Source: Bacteroidales bacterium
Lineage (GTDB): Bacteria > Bacteroidota > Bacteroidia > Bacteroidales > UBA932
Assembly: GCA_024398075.1 (NCBI GenBank)
Contig: JAKSJM010000025.1
Coordinates: forward strand, 1-37,910
Length of the DNA: 37,910 bases
Direction of reading: 5' to 3'
Shown here one piece after another: positions 11,475-18,061 of the stretch. The notes under the pieces were generated by a model. That model did not search any database and was not told where the DNA came from. It saw nothing but the letters and a program-made list of their open reading frames with translations. Within the stretch, counting starts at the first letter, position 1. Every line of letters starts with the position of its first letter. The translations under genes were made by a program, and so were the position numbers.

Positions 11475-13775
11475 ATGAAGAAAACGATAATCACTATTGC
11501 CGCTGCGCTTTGCTCATTCAGCATGTTCGCGCAGCCTCAGCTCAGGAAAGACAACATTGACGAGGTCCTGAAGGCCATGACCCTTGAGGAGAAAGCCGCA
11601 CTTTGTGTGGGAGGCGCCCGCGCTGCCATTGTGGAAGGCGTGACCTCTGGCTTGGTCAACGAGGTTCCTGGAGCTGCTGGAAACACCAGACCCATCCCTC
11701 GCCTTGGCATCCCGAATACGGTTCTTGCAGATGGTCCTGCCGGACTGCGCATCAACCCTAAGCGTGACGGCGCCAGCCAGACTTTCTATTGTACAGGTTT
11801 CCCTGTAGGAACCCTTCTCGCATCATCTTGGGATGTGGCTCTCGTGCAGAAGGTGACAGAGGCTATGGGTAATGAGGTTCTCGAGTACGGCGTGGATGTC
11901 CTCCTCGCTCCTGGTACAAATATCCATCGTAACCCTCTCTGTGGCCGTAACTTCGAGTATTTCTCAGAGGATCCTATTCTCTCTGGAAACATGGCTGCAG
12001 CTTATATCAATGGTATTCAGGCAAACGGTGTGGGTACTTCACTCAAGCACTACGCTGCAAATAATCAGGAGACAAACAGAAATGAGGACGATGCCATCGT
12101 AAGCGCACGTGCCCTTCGTGAGATCTACCTGAAGACTTTCGAAATCGCCATCAAGAAGGCTGATCCTTGGACAGTGATGTCATCGTATAACAAACTCAAC
12201 GGTGAGTACACCCAGCAGAGCGAGGACCTCCTCACAAAGGTCCTTCGTGATGATTGGGGCTACAAGGGCATCGTGATGACCGACTGGGGAAACAAGCAGG
12301 GTACAGTGAAGGCTGTGCATGCTCAGAATGACCTCATGGAGCCAGGAAACCAGAACGAGATCGACCGCATCGTGGCAGCGGTGAAGGACGGTAGCCTCTC
12401 CGAGGCTGACCTTGACAGAAATGTCCGCAACATGCTTGCTTATATCGTGAAGACTCCTCATTTCCAGAATTATAAGTTCTCGAACAAGCCTGACCTTGCA
12501 GCTCATGCGAAGGTGGCTCGCGAGGGCGCAGCCGAGTCCATTGTCCTCCTCAAGAATGAGAATGGTGCCCTTCCTATGGCAGGCGGTGAGACCGTGGCTC
12601 TCTATGGTATCGGCGCCATTGACTTCGTGGCTGGAGGTACCGGTTCAGGAAATGTGAACAAGGCATATGTAGTGAATATGGTAGATGGTCTCAAGAATGC
12701 AGGCTTCAAGCTTGATCAGGCCATCATCGACTACTATCAGTCATATATCGCATTCGACAAGGCTTCGAAGAAGCTCGCAGGCACAGCTCAGGGCTGGTCA
12801 ACATGGGGTGGCACCAAGTACAGCGAGATTGCTGTCCCAGCAAATGCAGTCGCAAGCCATGCGAAGGCAAATGATGCAGCTATCATCGTGATAGGCCGTA
12901 ATGCCGGTGAGGGCGCAGACCGTAAGGTCATCGACGACTTCGAGCTTACCGACATCGAGCGTAATCTCATCAGCAATGTCTCAAGAGAGTTCCACGCCCT
13001 CGGAAAGAAGGTCGTAGTGGTTCTCAACATCGGTGGCGTCATCGAGACCGCTTCTTGGAAGCACCTTGCAGATGCTATCGTTCTCCCTTGGTCTCCGGGA
13101 CAGGAGGGTGCCAATGCTGTCGCTGACATCCTTGTCGGCAAGGTAAACCCTTCAGGAAAGCTCCCTATGACTTTCCCTATTTCATACATCGACCATCCGT
13201 CTTCAGCAAACTTCCCTTCAAATTATACCAGAAATGCTGTTCCTATGTTTGGCTGGGGCAGACCTGCTCCTAAGCAGAAGGATGTCGATTATACAAATTA
13301 TGAAGAGGGTATCTGGGTTGGTTACAGATACTTCGATACAAATGCCAAGGAAGTTTCTTACCCATTCGGATTTGGTCTCTCTTACACTTCATTTGCATAT
13401 TCTAAGCCTGTTGTGAAGGCTACCAAGGACGGTTTCACAGCTACTGTCACAGTTACAAACACCGGTAAGGTGGCTGGTAAGGAAGTCGTTGAGGTCTATG
13501 TAAGTGCCCCTGCGGCAGGTCTTGAGAAGCCTGAGAAGGAGCTTAAGGCATTTGCCAAGACCGGCATGCTCCAGCCTGGACAGAGCGAGACACTCACTTT
13601 CAATGTCAGCGCTTATGAACTCGCTTCATTCAATGAAGCAGCGAACTGCTGGGAGACTGCAGCGGGCGCTTATACCGTGAAGTTCGGTGCGTCTGTAGCG
13701 GATATCCGCGCTACCGCTGCCTTCAAGCAGGCAAAGGCTGCCAGCTGGGCAGTGAGTGATGCTTTCGTGAAGTAA
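11475..13775 (+). CDS. GH3 beta-glucosidase-like glycosidase, exported
   Basis: This is a predicted periplasmic exo-beta-glycosidase, most likely a beta-glucosidase or beta-xylosidase. The 766 residues comprise a signal peptide (1-19, MFAQ), the N-terminal GH3 barrel, the C-terminal alpha/beta sandwich and a fibronectin-III-like domain from about residue 640. The nucleophile is D270 in IVMTDWG. The likely acid/base is E479 in GEGADRK. No PA14 insert is evident. One base separates its stop from the next gene, so the two are probably one transcript. A promoter-like TATATTTG lies upstream. Substrate specificity within GH3 cannot be settled by eye. Confidence 0.92.
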   Translation: MKKTIITIAAALCSFSMFAQPQLRKDNIDEVLKAMTLEEKAALCVGGARAAIVEGVTSGLVNEVPGAAGNTRPIPRLGIPNTVLADGPAGLRINPKRDGASQTFYCTGFPVGTLLASSWDVALVQKVTEAMGNEVLEYGVDVLLAPGTNIHRNPLCGRNFEYFSEDPILSGNMAAAYINGIQANGVGTSLKHYAANNQETNRNEDDAIVSARALREIYLKTFEIAIKKADPWTVMSSYNKLNGEYTQQSEDLLTKVLRDDWGYKGIVMTDWGNKQGTVKAVHAQNDLMEPGNQNEIDRIVAAVKDGSLSEADLDRNVRNMLAYIVKTPHFQNYKFSNKPDLAAHAKVAREGAAESIVLLKNENGALPMAGGETVALYGIGAIDFVAGGTGSGNVNKAYVVNMVDGLKNAGFKLDQAIIDYYQSYIAFDKASKKLAGTAQGWSTWGGTKYSEIAVPANAVASHAKANDAAIIVIGRNAGEGADRKVIDDFELTDIERNLISNVSREFHALGKKVVVVLNIGGVIETASWKHLADAIVLPWSPGQEGANAVADILVGKVNPSGKLPMTFPISYIDHPSSANFPSNYTRNAVPMFGWGRPAPKQKDVDYTNYEEGIWVGYRYFDTNAKEVSYPFGFGLSYTSFAYSKPVVKATKDGFTATVTVTNTGKVAGKEVVEVYVSAPAAGLEKPEKELKAFAKTGMLQPGQSETLTFNVSAYELASFNEAANCWETAAGAYTVKFGASVADIRATAAFKQAKAASWAVSDAFVK

Positions 13776-13776
13776 T

Positions 13777-14475
13777 ATGAAGTCACTCTTTACCAAGCCT
13801 TGGGTGCTGGTTCTTTGGCTAGTCACAGCGGCCTTGTACTTCGTTTGCAGGTACACAGTCGGCCAGCCTCTTGAGGCCATCACCAAGCTTTTACCAGAAA
13901 TAGTTCTCATGGTCGCCCTCTACTATAACAGGGCGGCCATTGAGAAGAAAGTGTATATGCCAGTGATGTTTGCTCTGCTCTTCTCGATGATAGGCGACAC
14001 AGCTGGTGAAATGAAGGGAGGAAATATAGGGCAGATAGCTTTTGTGCTCCAGATTTTCTTTTTCCTGATAGCTCAGATCCTGTATACTGTGAGCTTCGCA
14101 CGCAATATCCAGGCTTCTGCTTTTACTGATGTGAAGAAGGCTGTCGTGAAGGTGCTGCCTCTGCTTGTCATACTGGTGTATCTGGTGGTAGTGGGCACCA
14201 AGGTCTTTGCTTCTATCGACAGCACAGTGTTCATCATAGCGTGTGGCGTGTACCTTCTGGCCCTGCTGGGTACAGGGACCACCAGCGTGCTTCAGACCCG
14301 TCCTCATGGCTGGCTGTTTGTGCTTGGAGCGATGTTCTTCATCTTCTCCGACTCTATCATCGCGATAGGTGCATTCGTGAAGCCAGTGCCGAATTCGGGG
14401 CTCATCATCATGAGCACCTACTTTATTGCGCAGCTGCTTCTAAATATCTCACTGATAGGGGATTCCCGTAGTTAG
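13777..14475 (+). CDS. YhhN family membrane protein (lysoplasmalogenase-like)
   Basis: A 232-residue integral membrane protein with about eight hydrophobic segments. It fits the YhhN/TMEM86 family: a TKLLPEIVLM segment after the second helix, FSMIGDTAGE in the middle, and GAMFFIFSDSIIAI and YFIAQLLL near the end, carrying the conserved aspartates. Known members hydrolyse the vinyl-ether bond of lysoplasmalogens. It starts one base after the GH3 stop and must be cotranscribed with it, although the functions have no obvious link. Its stop overlaps that of the convergent radical SAM gene in TTAG. Confidence 0.8.
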   Translation: MKSLFTKPWVLVLWLVTAALYFVCRYTVGQPLEAITKLLPEIVLMVALYYNRAAIEKKVYMPVMFALLFSMIGDTAGEMKGGNIGQIAFVLQIFFFLIAQILYTVSFARNIQASAFTDVKKAVVKVLPLLVILVYLVVVGTKVFASIDSTVFIIACGVYLLALLGTGTTSVLQTRPHGWLFVLGAMFFIFSDSIIAIGAFVKPVPNSGLIIMSTYFIAQLLLNISLIGDSRS

Positions 14476-15536
14476 AGAGTTTTGTGATAATGGCAGTTGA
14501 TGACTTCGTCGCAGCTGCCATGCCAGTTATGCATCCCGTTTCCAAGACAGTTCTTGAAGACGGGACAATTGGTACATTTACCCCTGCGTGCCCAACTCCT
14601 GTCGCGGAACACCTGGAACTTGTTCTGCCAGACGTCGAAGAAATTGTCTTTATAGATGCTGCCCTGCGAGAATGCGTCTCTGTCGATGTTTGGGCATCCG
14701 CAGATCCTGCCATCAATGAGGATGGAGCCAATGGTGAGGCCTGCCCTGCAGATGTATGGAGTCTGCCTTACCTTGGTCTCGTATTTACCTAGATAGCCCT
14801 CGCAGCTGAACGTGACGTTCATCTTCGACTCCGGATGATCTCTTTTCGCCTGTATGAAGTCCATCAGATACTTGAACTCATCGTCAGAGAGATGCATGTC
14901 CGGATCGTCCTTGGCACGTCCTATAGGGATGATGGTGAATATTCTCCACTGCCATACACCAAGCGAGGCAAGTATGTCGTGGATCTGCTGCAACTGGCTG
15001 ATATTCTTTTTGTTCACGCAAGTGACTACGTCGAAGACAACGCGCTTGTCCTTCGCCACAATGGCTATGGCTTCCTTCGCTCTTGCGAAGCTCCCGCCAC
15101 GTCCTCGCATCCAGTCATGCTCGTCCTCAAGGCCATCGAGGCTTATGGTCAGCATCCGCATACCCGCTCCCATAAGTTTCGCGTGCATCTTCTCGTCGTA
15201 AAAGAATCCATTGGACACCATGCCCCAAGATACACCGCGTTTTGTCAATGCTTTCCCTATCTCTTCTATGTCAGGACGCAACAAAGGCTCTCCTCCAGTC
15301 AGTACGACGGAGAATTCTCTATTCAGGGTTTTCTTCGGGATAGTGTCAAACGCCTTCAGGAAGTCCTCCAGTGGCATATCTACATCGGCGCTTGCACTCA
15401 TACAGTCGCTGCCGCAGTGCCTGCACCTGAGATTACATCTGGTGGTGCATTCCCAGAACAGATAATTCAGTTCATGCTCCCTGGCCTCATTTTCTCTGAA
15501 GAGGCGAAACAGGAAATCCCTTACGGCGGGAATCAT
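14472..15536 (-). CDS. Radical SAM/SPASM enzyme of an rSAM/lipoprotein system
   Basis: A 354-residue radical SAM protein. The SAM-cluster motif is CNLRCRHC (C34, C38, C41), followed by GGEP at 81-84 and the usual half-barrel. The C-terminal SPASM-type domain holds more cysteines for auxiliary clusters: C263-x12-GRICGC (C281), C321-x2-C324-x5-C330, then C342 and C348. Such enzymes usually modify a peptide or protein. Two bases upstream is a gene for a small lipoprotein. This pairing matches what I recall as a Bacteroidetes rSAM/lipoprotein system (TIGRFAM models for the enzyme and its partner), whose chemistry is unknown. The partner lipoprotein is the natural candidate substrate, but that is inference. 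Confidence 0.88.
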   Translation of the reverse strand: MIPAVRDFLFRLFRENEAREHELNYLFWECTTRCNLRCRHCGSDCMSASADVDMPLEDFLKAFDTIPKKTLNREFSVVLTGGEPLLRPDIEEIGKALTKRGVSWGMVSNGFFYDEKMHAKLMGAGMRMLTISLDGLEDEHDWMRGRGGSFARAKEAIAIVAKDKRVVFDVVTCVNKKNISQLQQIHDILASLGVWQWRIFTIIPIGRAKDDPDMHLSDDEFKYLMDFIQAKRDHPESKMNVTFSCEGYLGKYETKVRQTPYICRAGLTIGSILIDGRICGCPNIDRDAFSQGSIYKDNFFDVWQNKFQVFRDRSWARRGKCTNCPVFKNCLGNGMHNWHGSCDEVINCHYHKTL

Positions 15537-15538
15537 GG

Positions 15539-15925
15539 CTACTGCTTGCGAAGCTTTATCGTGATGTCTTCGCTGCCAAAGTTTGTCACCACTGTGTCTT
15601 TAGTCGAGTAAGCGCCATCAGCTGGGCTGACAAGCATCTCGACTTCTGTACCCATCATTTCTTCCTGGATTCCCATGCAAAGTACTCCTTCGTCTGAGCT
15701 ATAGCCACTTAGACTCCATGGCTGTCCCTGGACACCGGCCTCCCGGTCTCTAAACTTGATGGTGGCATCCTTGATAGGCGAGCCATCCTCTGCGTCCACT
15801 ACCTTGATCTTGACCTCGGGCAACCCGTAATATGGTACCGCCGTGCCGTAGCAAGCCTGGAAAACGAAAAGAGCCGTGGTAAGGGATGCTCCCTTGAGAA
15901 TGTTTCTTATAAGTTTCATAATCAC
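15539..15925 (-). CDS. Small lipoprotein partner of the radical SAM enzyme
   Basis: A 128-residue predicted lipoprotein. The lipobox is VFQAC with the lipidated C25, followed by YGTAVPYYG. The rest resembles a small beta-sandwich domain of the carboxypeptidase-regulatory or transthyretin-like kind: VKIKVVDAEDGSPIKDATIKF, a middle with SLSGYSSDEGVLCMGI, and a final strand DITIKLRKQ. Only one cysteine (C83) remains after the lipobox. Two start codons six bases apart are possible (15925 and 15919). It is two bases upstream of the radical SAM gene and 29 bases downstream of a shortened AraC gene. The arrangement fits the rSAM/lipoprotein system. Whether it is modified by the enzyme is unknown. 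Confidence 0.8.
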   Translation of the reverse strand: MIMKLIRNILKGASLTTALFVFQACYGTAVPYYGLPEVKIKVVDAEDGSPIKDATIKFRDREAGVQGQPWSLSGYSSDEGVLCMGIQEEMMGTEVEMLVSPADGAYSTKDTVVTNFGSEDITIKLRKQ

Positions 15926-15941
15926 CAGTATCTAGATGCAG

Positions 15942-15950
15942 GCAAATATA
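15942..15950 (-). promoter_or_regulatory. Possible -7 box for the lipoprotein/radical SAM pair
   Basis: On the minus strand this reads TATATTTGC, an exact TAnnTTTG match, 16 bases before the lipoprotein start and within the 29-base gap after the AraC-like gene. It would leave a leader of only about ten bases. No convincing -33 element lies upstream. It suggests that the pair can be transcribed independently of the AraC remnant. Confidence 0.45.
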
Positions 15951-15954
15951 ATGA

Positions 15955-16296
15955 TTATTTCGTTGAATTACGATATTGTCTTGGAGACATCCCCGTGATT
16001 CTCTTGAAATACTTGCCGAAAAGAGACTGGTTCGGGAAAGAAAGGGTATCGCTAATCTGCTCTATGCTCATGCTTGTAGACCTGAGCAGAGCCTTGGCTT
16101 CTGCACAGACGAAGTCTGTCATGTTGATGCTGATTTTCAATGATCCTTTTGTGAGGAAGATGACAGCCGTTGAACTGGCGAAATATGGATCCTGGCTTAC
16201 TTCCCAGAATTCATCATGATTAAGCACGAGCACATCGTTGTGGATGCGCCTGTCGTGGCCAACTACTGAATTGAAGTAGTCCCTTTTGCGTATCAT
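15955..16296 (-). pseudogene. AraC-type regulator with an apparent in-frame internal deletion
   Basis: A 113-residue reading frame with two parts that do not normally touch. Residues 1-62 resemble the start of a Bacteroidetes AraC-family sensor domain (RIHNDVLVLNHDEF, then VIFLTKGSLKISINMTDF). Residues 63-110 are the end of an AraC DNA-binding domain: VCAEAKALLRSTSMSIEQISDTL, then FPNQSLFGKYFKRITGMSPRQYR. Full-length relatives are about 280-300 residues, so roughly 170 residues, including the first helix-turn-helix, seem to be missing between about residues 62 and 64, with the frame kept. It may be a dead gene or a small regulator with one helix-turn-helix. It is immediately upstream of the lipoprotein/radical SAM pair on the same strand. 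Confidence 0.65.
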
Positions 16297-16432
16297 AGGT
16301 TGAATAGGCGGTTTTCAAATATTTGTTAAATATGACTAAAGTTTGGAATATTTCGTATGATTGTTACCAATTATTTGGAGGAATGTGCGAAAATGCAAGA
16401 AAAAAATCATTATAATGTGCTATATTTACGAA

Positions 16433-18061
16433 ATGAAAATCACTCAGAAGACTCTTGCGGAGGTCTTTAGGCATTCGGTATCCGCATTCAAGGACCAGAT
16501 TTGGGCTAGGACCTATGACTCCCAGACTATCTACACGTATGAGTCTTTCGGCCATCGTTGTCACATGCTGTCGAATGAACTGCTCCAGTATGGAGTGGCT
16601 GCAGGAGACAAGGTCGCTATCTATTCCATTGGACTGCCTAACTGGTCGTTGGCGTTCTTCTGTGCCACCGCATTCGGTCGTGTGGCTGTGCCTATCCTGC
16701 CGGATTTCTCTGGCAACGAAGCAGAGCATGTGCTTGAGCACAGCGAGGCTAAAGTCTTGTTTGCCAGCAAGCTTCAGCTTGCGAAATTGAGTGAGGAGGT
16801 GCTGTCCAAGCTAGTTCTTGTGTACGAGATAGAGTCGATGACATTGATAAGGAACAACGCCAAAGAGATGTTTGCTCCCGTGGATGTCGCTGAGCCTAAG
16901 GAGAGTGATCTCGCCGCCATCATCTACACTTCGGGTACCACAGGACAGGCGAAGGGCGTGATGCTATCGCACCAGAATTTCATTGCGAACCTACACGCAG
17001 GCATCCATTTTTATCCCCTGGGGAAAAAGGATGTGCTTCTTTCCATACTTCCATTGGCGCATGCATACGAGCTTAGCCTCGGCATGCTGTATCCTTTCAT
17101 CTGTGGCGCAAGCGTGGTGTACCTATGCAAGGCGCCGAACCCAAGTTTCCTCATGAAGGTGATGCAGGAGGTGCGTCCTACGGCCATGCTGACTGTGCCG
17201 CTCATCATCGAGAAGGTGTATAAAGGCACCATTGTTCCAATGGTTAAGAAAAGCTCAGTCCTGTCGTGGATGGACAAGCACATGAACAGGGTTCTGTGCC
17301 GACTCATTGGCAAGAGAATGATAAAGACTTTCGGCGGTCGCATGTCTTTCTTCGGCATCGGCGGCGCGAAGCTGGACATAGACGTGGAGCGCTTCCTTCA
17401 GAAAGCGCGCTTCCCTTACTATATAGGTTACGGTCTTACTGAGTGTGCCCCGTTGCTGGCGCTCTGTACGTACAAGGACACTGTGCCAGGCCAGATCGGT
17501 AGGGCAGTGCATGGCGTTACGCTGAAGCTGGACAACATAAATCCAGAGACCGGGGAGGGCGAGATAGTAGCCAAGGGCCCGAACATAATGCCAGGTTACT
17601 ACAAGGATGAGGAGCGCACTGCAGATGCCTTCAACGAGGATGGATGGTTCCGTACAAAGGATGTGGCGAGCGTGGACTCGAAGGGACGTTATGCCATCAA
17701 AGGCCGAATCGGAAACATGATCCTAGGCTCTTCAGGAGAGAATATCTATCCAGAAGAGATAGAAAAAGTGGTGAAGGAAATCCCTATGGTTGAGGATGTT
17801 ATCGTCATCTGCCGAAACCATAAGCTCGTGGCGCTCGTGAGGGCGGCCGACAAGCTTGTGGATATGAAGAAGGCGGAGACTGACGAGCAGTCTCGCGCTG
17901 CCGTGGCTGGCTTCAAGAAGACCATCAAGGACTATGTCAATGCCAGGGTGAATCAGAGCTCGAAGATACACGACGTCCAGGTGATGAAGGAGCCATTCGA
18001 GAAGACCGCCACCATGAAGATCAGGCGCTTCAAGTATAAGGACGACGCGCCTACCATTTAG
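16433..18061 (+). CDS. AMP-forming acyl-CoA ligase (long-chain fatty acid-CoA ligase-like)
   Basis: A 542-residue ANL-superfamily enzyme that activates a carboxylic acid, most likely a fatty acid, to the acyl-adenylate and then the CoA thioester. The P-loop-like motif YTSGTTGQAKGVMLSH starts near residue 163, YGLTECAPL near 333, and the C-terminal hinge and lysine region ends with EKTATMKIRRFKY. No signal peptide or membrane helix is seen. The frame is open upstream to a TTG at 16361, but the first plausible start is the ATG at 16433 (MKITQKTLAEVF), which matches the normal N-terminus of the family; an ATG at 16415 is an alternative. It is divergent from the AraC-like gene and its stop overlaps the convergent PTS IIC gene (TTAG). 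Confidence 0.88.
   Translation: MKITQKTLAEVFRHSVSAFKDQIWARTYDSQTIYTYESFGHRCHMLSNELLQYGVAAGDKVAIYSIGLPNWSLAFFCATAFGRVAVPILPDFSGNEAEHVLEHSEAKVLFASKLQLAKLSEEVLSKLVLVYEIESMTLIRNNAKEMFAPVDVAEPKESDLAAIIYTSGTTGQAKGVMLSHQNFIANLHAGIHFYPLGKKDVLLSILPLAHAYELSLGMLYPFICGASVVYLCKAPNPSFLMKVMQEVRPTAMLTVPLIIEKVYKGTIVPMVKKSSVLSWMDKHMNRVLCRLIGKRMIKTFGGRMSFFGIGGAKLDIDVERFLQKARFPYYIGYGLTECAPLLALCTYKDTVPGQIGRAVHGVTLKLDNINPETGEGEIVAKGPNIMPGYYKDEERTADAFNEDGWFRTKDVASVDSKGRYAIKGRIGNMILGSSGENIYPEEIEKVVKEIPMVEDVIVICRNHKLVALVRAADKLVDMKKAETDEQSRAAVAGFKKTIKDYVNARVNQSSKIHDVQVMKEPFEKTATMKIRRFKYKDDAPTI

Follow-up and report, generated by a model that had tools for sequence, protein, structure and literature searches.

The window analysed here (37,910 nucleotides of contig JAKSJM010000025.1, from a Bacteroidales bacterium of the UBA932 lineage) carries on its reverse strand a gene pair encoding a radical S-adenosylmethionine (SAM) enzyme with a SPASM domain and a small lipoprotein (Table 1). 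The two genes lie two bases apart, as the initial annotation had stated: the stop codon of the lipoprotein gene ends at 15539 and the ATG of the enzyme gene begins at 15536. The same annotation had assigned the pair to a Bacteroidetes radical SAM/lipoprotein system of unknown chemistry. The assignment is confirmed by the enzyme, which scores 465 bits (E = 1.3e-139) against the NCBIfam model TIGR04133, whose curated cut-off is 425, and 80 bits against Pfam Radical_SAM. The chemistry can be narrowed, since a Tyr-Gly motif is common to the lipoprotein partners of this enzyme family, and spliceases that excise tyramine are known to act at the same motif. We regard a splicease-like, lipoprotein-modifying enzyme as the best explanation for the data as a whole, with confidence and doubt about evenly balanced.

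Table 1. Features of the enzyme/lipoprotein gene pair and its upstream region (positions in the window).
Feature	Position	Strand	Basis or remark
Radical SAM/SPASM enzyme, 354 amino acids	14472..15536	-	TIGR04133 match
C34xxxC38xxC41, radical SAM [4Fe-4S] cluster motif, followed by G42-S-D-C45	15414..15437	-	212/212 aligned rows
Linker motif G247-Y-L-G-x-Y-E253-x-x-x-R257 between radical SAM and SPASM domains	14766..14798	-	
SPASM-type cysteines C263, C281, C321, C324, C330, C348	14493..14750	-	alignment; C245 lies slightly upstream
Proposed substrate lipoprotein, 126 amino acids from conserved ATG	15539..15919	-	start set by signal peptides of relatives
Signal peptide, residues 1-22, MKLIRNILKGASLTTALFVFQA	15854..15919	-	conservation compared with BamD; proposed double role as enzyme leader
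C23-Y24-G25, lipobox Cys and first XYG site	15845..15853	-	
Y30-Y31-G32-L33-P34, second XYG site (YGxP form)	15818..15832	-	
Variable lipoprotein body, residues 36-126	15542..15814	-	short, mostly acidic tail instead in many relatives
TATATTTG, fits the Bacteroidetes -7 promoter consensus TAnnTTTG	15943..15950	-	sequence

Membership of the enzyme in the radical SAM/SPASM superfamily is evident from its cysteines. In an alignment of 212 rows, some of them near-identical, C34, C38, C41, C45, C245, C263, C281 and C348 are invariant, as is R257 of the linker motif, and C321, C324 and C330 are kept in 211. The canonical CxxxCxxC motif that had been described is thereby borne out as C34-x3-C38-x2-C41. 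The further SPASM-type cysteines of that description are likewise conserved, but the set departs from the textbook pattern CX2CX5CX3C: at position 334, the place of the fourth Cys, the 212 rows have Gly (192), Ala (10), Ser (9) or a gap (1), which is thus a property of the TIGR04133 family. A smaller enzyme alignment comprised 36 rows, the window enzyme and 35 of the 73 enzyme open reading frames (ORFs) listed.

For the lipoprotein, an alternative GTG start at 15925 would give the 128 residues proposed initially; the signal peptides of relatives start at the ATG at 15919, which corrects the length to 126. Its lipobox reads FQA-C23. The single non-lipobox cysteine pointed out earlier as C83 is C81 when counted from the ATG; it lacks conservation across a 32-row alignment consisting of the window and 31 of 39 listed full-length lipoproteins. 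The expectation that residues other than cysteines would be the target is thereby supported, and a Cys-based product was rejected. As all rows were chosen for CYG, the invariance of CYG within this alignment proves nothing. The second site of the window lipoprotein (YYGLPEVKI) has the YGxP form usual outside its own clade and is missing from the other 31 rows; its YGLP is the same as in the Nostoc sequence ALYGLPPELF discussed below. No NCBIfam model matches the window lipoprotein even at E = 10, and the only Pfam match, DUF7382, reaches 18.9 bits, under the threshold of 27.4. With this match below threshold and many partners lacking a body, the lipoprotein body as the functional part was rejected as well.

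What the partners of TIGR04133 enzymes have in common is Tyr-Gly. Among 118 neighbouring lipoproteins, picked regardless of the motif, YGxP occurs within the first 40 mature residues in 86, whereas none of 45 unrelated lipoproteins taken from comparable loci has it there (Fisher p = 1e-19); within 300 residues, it occurs in 99 of the 118 and in 5 of the 45. The 118 include probable non-partners, namely four without any YG (L167, L193, L227, L228). Partners of the window's clade have the motif immediately after the lipidated Cys (FQA-C-Y-G); elsewhere in the order it mostly takes the form X-Y-G-x-P ([EMKVAL]YGxP), frequently with Phe or Tyr at +7. The site read for each partner was the first YGxP where present, so Pro at +3 is favoured by construction. 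At 114 first sites the +7 residue is Phe in 31 and Tyr in 28, an aromatic preference that is not kept in the 32-row alignment of the CYG clade, and +2 varies (T, V, S, C, A, M, I). The residue X is Cys at 33 of these 114 sites, 32 times the lipobox Cys, and another residue at 81; the 82 non-lipobox sites include E (26), M (14), K (13), V (8), A (7) and L (7).

The position and number of the motif are just as variable. Its distance from the lipobox has a median of 9 and a maximum of 99 residues (CYG sites included), 14 of the 118 partners contain two or three YGxP copies, 15 have YG without Pro, and the tandem-repeat partner at L187 carries DDVECIYGPPP. In three loci (L163, L172, L174) a partner has no lipobox but an ordinary signal peptide with AQYG[AV]P at its end; the system can therefore do without lipidation. 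Tyr-Gly persists while the body of the lipoprotein is dispensable: of the 77 CYG partners in the genome_contigs set, 21 fall short of 80 amino acids, and order-wide there are partners as short as 53 (some 53-78). Variable distance, repeated copies, multiple partners and a variable X are the anatomy of the cores of ribosomally synthesized and post-translationally modified peptides (RiPPs) rather than of a fold. Judged by comparison of the relatives as a whole, the XYG motif is very probably the site that the enzyme modifies.

The linkage that the initial annotation had proposed to compare between relatives is kept. At 165 of 194 loci (the window's locus being counted twice) the partner lipoprotein family stands beside the enzyme, while the next commonest neighbour family is found at 13, and no third gene family recurs at these loci among ORFs of at least 60 amino acids. 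A partner defined by a signal peptide followed by the XYG motif was found at 104 of 113 sampled enzymes (112 from Bacteroidales, one from elsewhere in the phylum). The genome_contigs set gave 75 of 80 and the relatives set 25 of 29; these sets share some of their members, and the window genome's own two enzymes are excluded. Mock anchors in the same 13-kb loci had such a partner in 1 of 48 cases, under a relaxed form of the definition applied to one flank. In L190 and L200 two enzymes share one partner, which was counted for both. Of the nine misses, L159 and L231 have their contig end no more than 250 bases away upstream, and L187 and L217 carry a motif-bearing ORF that the definition missed. 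The lipoprotein is encoded on the opposite strand in 17 of 80 genome_contigs loci; therefore, the association outlives the operon. Two to four partners are present in 23 of 84 loci. Besides, L186 has five signal-peptide lipoproteins in a row upstream of the enzyme, the nearest three with XYG where X is D, L or K.

Besides Tyr-Gly, the signal peptide is the other feature that persists in the partners. When 16,212 six-frame ORFs were searched with a profile built from the signal peptides alone, without Cys or YG and from rows previously chosen for CYG, 81 peptides from 76 of 81 sources were retrieved, every one of them with CYG at the lipobox. At 30-45% mature identity, the median identity of partner signal peptides is 73% (268 pairs), compared with 29% for BamD signal peptides of related Bacteroidales genomes in the same band (247 pairs). 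In the 22-30% band of BamD (26 pairs) the signal peptides are 38% identical, above the mature part, and the partners reach 64% at 15-30%. The BamD control had a usable signal peptide from 26 of 30 loci, and pairs below 22% mature identity were left out; a within-locus signal-peptide control comprised just eight pairs (median 92% identical). Compared with BamD, the signal peptide is therefore under unusual constraint.

The host genome (2.49 Mb, 82% complete) contains a second cassette on a separate contig. Its enzyme is 49% identical to that of the window and scores 544.7 bits, over the TIGR04133 cut-off, and its lipoprotein scores 66.4 bits against TIGR04134 (cut-off 39.8), the sole match over the cut-off in a search of the whole genome. 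The two lipoproteins of this genome are barely alike (37% over 57 residues, E = 2e-4). A genome assigned to the same genus (locus L010) has a lipoprotein identical to that in a record of Candidatus Cryptobacteroides onthequi (L081), which makes this the probable genus of the host. The search for the paired families that had been suggested initially thus succeeded for the window enzyme and for both genes of the second cassette, but not for the window lipoprotein; within the window, it is the enzyme alone that passes, because the lipoprotein matches no NCBIfam model.

Of 393 Bacteroidales genomes searched, 94 contain TIGR04133, as do 3 of 394 phylum-wide genomes, the window's own among the three; in a set of 61 genomes, 31 have relatives of the window enzyme at E <= 1e-50. 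The locus set leaves out two order-wide matches that are truncated at contig ends or split (G801, G659). Among plasmids, the TIGR04133 annotation is present in records from Parabacteroides distasonis and Treponema saccharophilum, and an unannotated Phocaeicola plasmid record encodes an enzyme with 48% identity. Since the Treponema plasmid enzyme (451.4 bits) and its neighbour (43.7 bits) are both over the TIGR04133/TIGR04134 cut-offs, the cassette has left Bacteroidota, and together with the partners lacking a lipobox this means that the system extends beyond Bacteroidota and beyond lipoproteins. On this plasmid (L235:3625-5101), the enzyme and a CYGMP lipoprotein stand beside an invertase-type recombinase.

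Around the window's gene pair, a YhhN-family membrane protein gene (13777-14475, plus strand; Pfam 88.5 bits) is convergent with the enzyme gene, and their 3' ends overlap by four bases. Directly upstream of the lipoprotein gene lies an AraC-type fragment (15955-16296, minus strand; 113 amino acids) that retains only the C-terminal helix-turn-helix half (Pfam HTH_18, 45.7 bits); such a family is not among the commonest neighbours in relatives. No RNA element reached the Rfam gathering score in 13700-16500. Promoter-like sites numbered 4 with 2.5 expected, and terminators 0 with 1.7 expected.

In this context, the spliceases provide a concrete model. PlpX is reported to act on XYG with MYG and LYG as natural sites of PlpXY, the tags listed include GGPIRPLYGLPI, and most tags inserted in FtsZ were not accepted (PMC10533398). 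PlpX belongs to IPR026482 and requires PlpY, a protein of the RiPP recognition element type, and the same paper mentions the use of the spliceotide ketoamide moiety in protease inhibition (PMC11002830). According to a paper of 2022, a natural spliceotide had never been isolated and no role was known (PMC8868522).

The proposed pathway would start with synthesis of the lipoprotein, whose unprocessed form would be bound by the cytoplasmic TIGR04133 enzyme. Recognition would take place in the cytoplasm via the conserved signal peptide, which would thereby serve as a RiPP-type leader. A tyramine equivalent would then be excised at Tyr24, perhaps also at Tyr31, and the backbone rejoined; export, lipidation of Cys23 and cleavage would follow in this order. 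A radical SAM/SPASM enzyme whose neighbours have a leader-like segment and a short repeated core in common is built like a RiPP maturase with its precursor. As for the reaction, no single reading fits better than tyramine excision, although we would put it at an even chance. A ketoamide beside the membrane anchor would suit an anchored protease inhibitor in which X (Cys, Glu, Met, Lys, Val, Ala, Leu) is the specificity residue. If this is true, a specificity of the warhead set by X would account for the multiplied partners, the variable X within one locus and the dispensable body. We put forward the anchored, protease-inhibiting warhead only tentatively, and the broader picture, in which Bacteroidales (about a quarter of the sampled genomes) carry spliceases for envelope lipoproteins whose ketoamide is such a membrane-held warhead with its specificity from X, has to be seen as similarly doubtful.

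To place the enzyme, we compared it with other SPASM families. A Nostoc plasmid encodes a PlpX-type locus with an enzyme scoring 853 bits against TIGR04103, which we take to be the family of PlpX, a Nif11-leader precursor ending in ALYGLPPELF and an adjoining 71-residue protein, a PlpY candidate; this family assignment agrees with PlpX being described with a Nif11 precursor and a small partner protein. The Y-G-x-P-x-x-x-F spacing of the Nostoc precursor is that of the Bacteroidales EYGTPYADF. Among the enzymes, G42 is present in 6 of 6 TIGR04103/TIGR03913/Agathobacter rows and in none of 8 other SPASM rows, and G247, E253 and R257 are present in 6, 5 and 5 of the six and again in none of the eight. 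The Agathobacter row is the one without E253 and R257, while nearly all 12 TIGR04133 rows carry G42, G247, E253 and R257; the linker of the Nostoc protein reads GYYGPYERLLR. Together with W197 (2 of the 8 others), this amounts to five shared columns, a number that 8 of 3003 regroupings reach.

A first tree without intermediate sequences joined TIGR04133 to TIGR04103/TIGR03913/Agathobacter at 90/78. In a second tree, TIGR04133, TIGR04103/TIGR03913 and eight intermediates were grouped at 100/99 against six other SPASM rows. The intermediates were found with the TIGR04103 model and chosen by their TIGR04103 score, so this wider clade is biased towards TIGR04103. Approximately unbiased tests (p-AU) gave 0.084 for TIGR04133 with TIGR04103/TIGR03913 alone, a grouping thus neither established nor rejected, 0.104 with Agathobacter and L285 added, and 0.0475 with L282-L284; a value of 1.3e-6 belongs to a grouping that split Agathobacter from its sister L285 and is not informative on TIGR04133. 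L222, L230 and L179 (inner-Met starts) and L245 (poor match) were left out of both trees, and the long branches L246 and L247 out of the second. These trees place TIGR04133 in a broad clade of enzymes, to which the PlpX-type family also belongs.

Several observations weigh against a splicease-like reading. The best tree with intermediates does not join TIGR04133 to TIGR04103/TIGR03913 alone, the branch of the TIGR04133 family is long (2.3 changes per column), and no clear XYG peptide was seen near the seven intermediates other than Agathobacter; the wider clade is therefore not XYG-specific. The window enzyme scores 124.8 bits against TIGR04103, far under the cut-off of 725 and of the same order as AhbD (heme b synthase, 128.7) and TIGR04053 (123.9). 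No PlpY-like gene recurs in the 194 loci among ORFs of at least 60 amino acids. Five enzymes flanked on both sides have no XYG partner (L122, outside the order, and L162, L167, L182, L194), and the neighbouring lipoprotein of L228 reads CYA. The second cassette of the very same genome has Tyr-Ala at the usual Tyr-Gly place, its lipoprotein (L002:2550-2942, minus strand) reading MYATPYGDY where others have EYGTPYADF. Finally, the lipobox Cys itself takes the place of X in the clade of the window, so that a modification there would have to be tolerated by the lipidation and cleavage enzymes.

The strongest competitor is a different radical chemistry at the same XYG, either a C-C or C-O cross-link between the Tyr ring and a neighbouring residue or an oxidation or decarboxylation as in PqqE, MftC or the triceptides, which we consider possible though rather unlikely. 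SPASM enzymes carry out many such reactions, an aromatic residue at +7 is common besides Tyr-Gly, and the similarity of the window enzyme to AhbD, NirJ2 and the mycofactocin enzyme is of the same order as that to TIGR04103. However, +2 varies and the +7 aromatic is not kept in the CYG clade, so no fixed cross-link partner is visible, and the constant pair is Tyr-Gly, as in the spliceases. In another scenario the lipoprotein would be a partner or anchor with XYG as a docking motif, and the enzyme would act on another protein or a small molecule. AhbD/NirJ-type enzymes, which act on tetrapyrroles, score similarly, and this scenario would agree with the rank of hypothetical equivalogs that NCBIfam gives to both TIGR04133 and TIGR04134, in whose catalogue the pairing already stands. 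Multiple XYG copies, several partners per locus and bodies that vanish while XYG is kept fit a substrate better, and a common third gene family is missing; thus docking appears improbable to us.

Sorting signals of lipoproteins lie next to the lipidated Cys, the very position of the motif in the window's clade, and the signal peptide with CYG might therefore be an export or sorting signal kept for transport, like the surface-export motifs of Bacteroidetes. Elsewhere, however, the motif is up to 99 residues away, occurs in repeats and in partners without a lipobox, and its YGxP form is missing from the first 40 residues of the 45 unrelated lipoproteins, which makes this explanation very improbable. 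A thioether maturase of the sactipeptide or ranthipeptide type, to which the SPASM fold, NCBIfam StsB and PapB matches far under their cut-offs and a match to SkfB in the PDB (47.5 bits) could point, is hardly credible, as there are no conserved core cysteines to act as thioether donors, with C81 not conserved and 81 of 114 first sites having a residue other than Cys before YG. A viperin-type defence role (PADLOC viperins, 80.5 and 67.8 bits) was rejected because the TIGR04133 match is far stronger and the viperin match looks like a general superfamily one.

With a splicease-like enzyme as the preferred reading, the catalogued pairing of a radical SAM enzyme and a lipoprotein, for which the papers searched offer no explanation, gains a cheap and concrete prediction, namely that a specified Tyr should lose 135.0757 Da. 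If this reading is true, proteins with a spliced backbone would be widespread on the envelopes of Bacteroidales from gut and rumen, a rare chemistry would gain a new place and perhaps a new role in anchored protease inhibition, and signal peptides would be added to the known kinds of RiPP leaders. Even if another reaction takes place, the probable target site is now named. In the literature searched, mostly at listing level, we found neither the Tyr-Gly motif nor a link to spliceases, and no paper naming TIGR04133, TIGR04134, TIGR04103 or 'radical SAM-associated putative lipoprotein'; the combination of radical SAM, lipoprotein, Bacteroides and SPASM returned a single paper, on graspetides, which is unrelated.

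Compared with known systems, the window's pair resembles the TIGR04133/TIGR04134 system in having an enzyme over the cut-off with a small lipoprotein adjacent, and the second cassette satisfies both models. It differs in that the window lipoprotein has no TIGR04134 match, and its clade bears CYG at the lipobox whereas other TIGR04133-linked lipoproteins bear YGxP further downstream.

The TIGR03913 system of GDL-motif/DUF1843 peptides shares the wider enzyme clade with TIGR04133, but its small peptides have no signal peptide. Near the N-terminus, 6 of 10 DUF1843 peptides have XYG (e.g. PYGPAM, LYGGAM, PYGVAI, LYGVGI) and 4 of 10 have XYM or XYA, which suggests that the TIGR03913 system and the spliceases act on a common site. 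DUF1843 'GDL motif' peptides were seen at L237:3153-3866, L239:1787-2242, L241:1537-2237 and L281. In addition, a plasmid of Agathobacter rectalis has an unannotated 35-residue ORF ending in MYGTGVRM (L234:3841-3945, plus strand) that immediately precedes a radical SAM gene and is a candidate for a spliceotide-like precursor.

The comparison with PlpX-PlpY shows differences in the substrate, a Nif11-leader peptide there and a lipoprotein with a signal peptide here, as well as in the enzyme, which has 420 amino acids there and 354 here and, in TIGR04133, a SPASM domain without the fourth Cys of CX2CX5CX3C. Common to both are the XYG target, the YGxP with an aromatic residue at +7 in the Nostoc locus, and a SPASM enzyme encoded beside its precursor.

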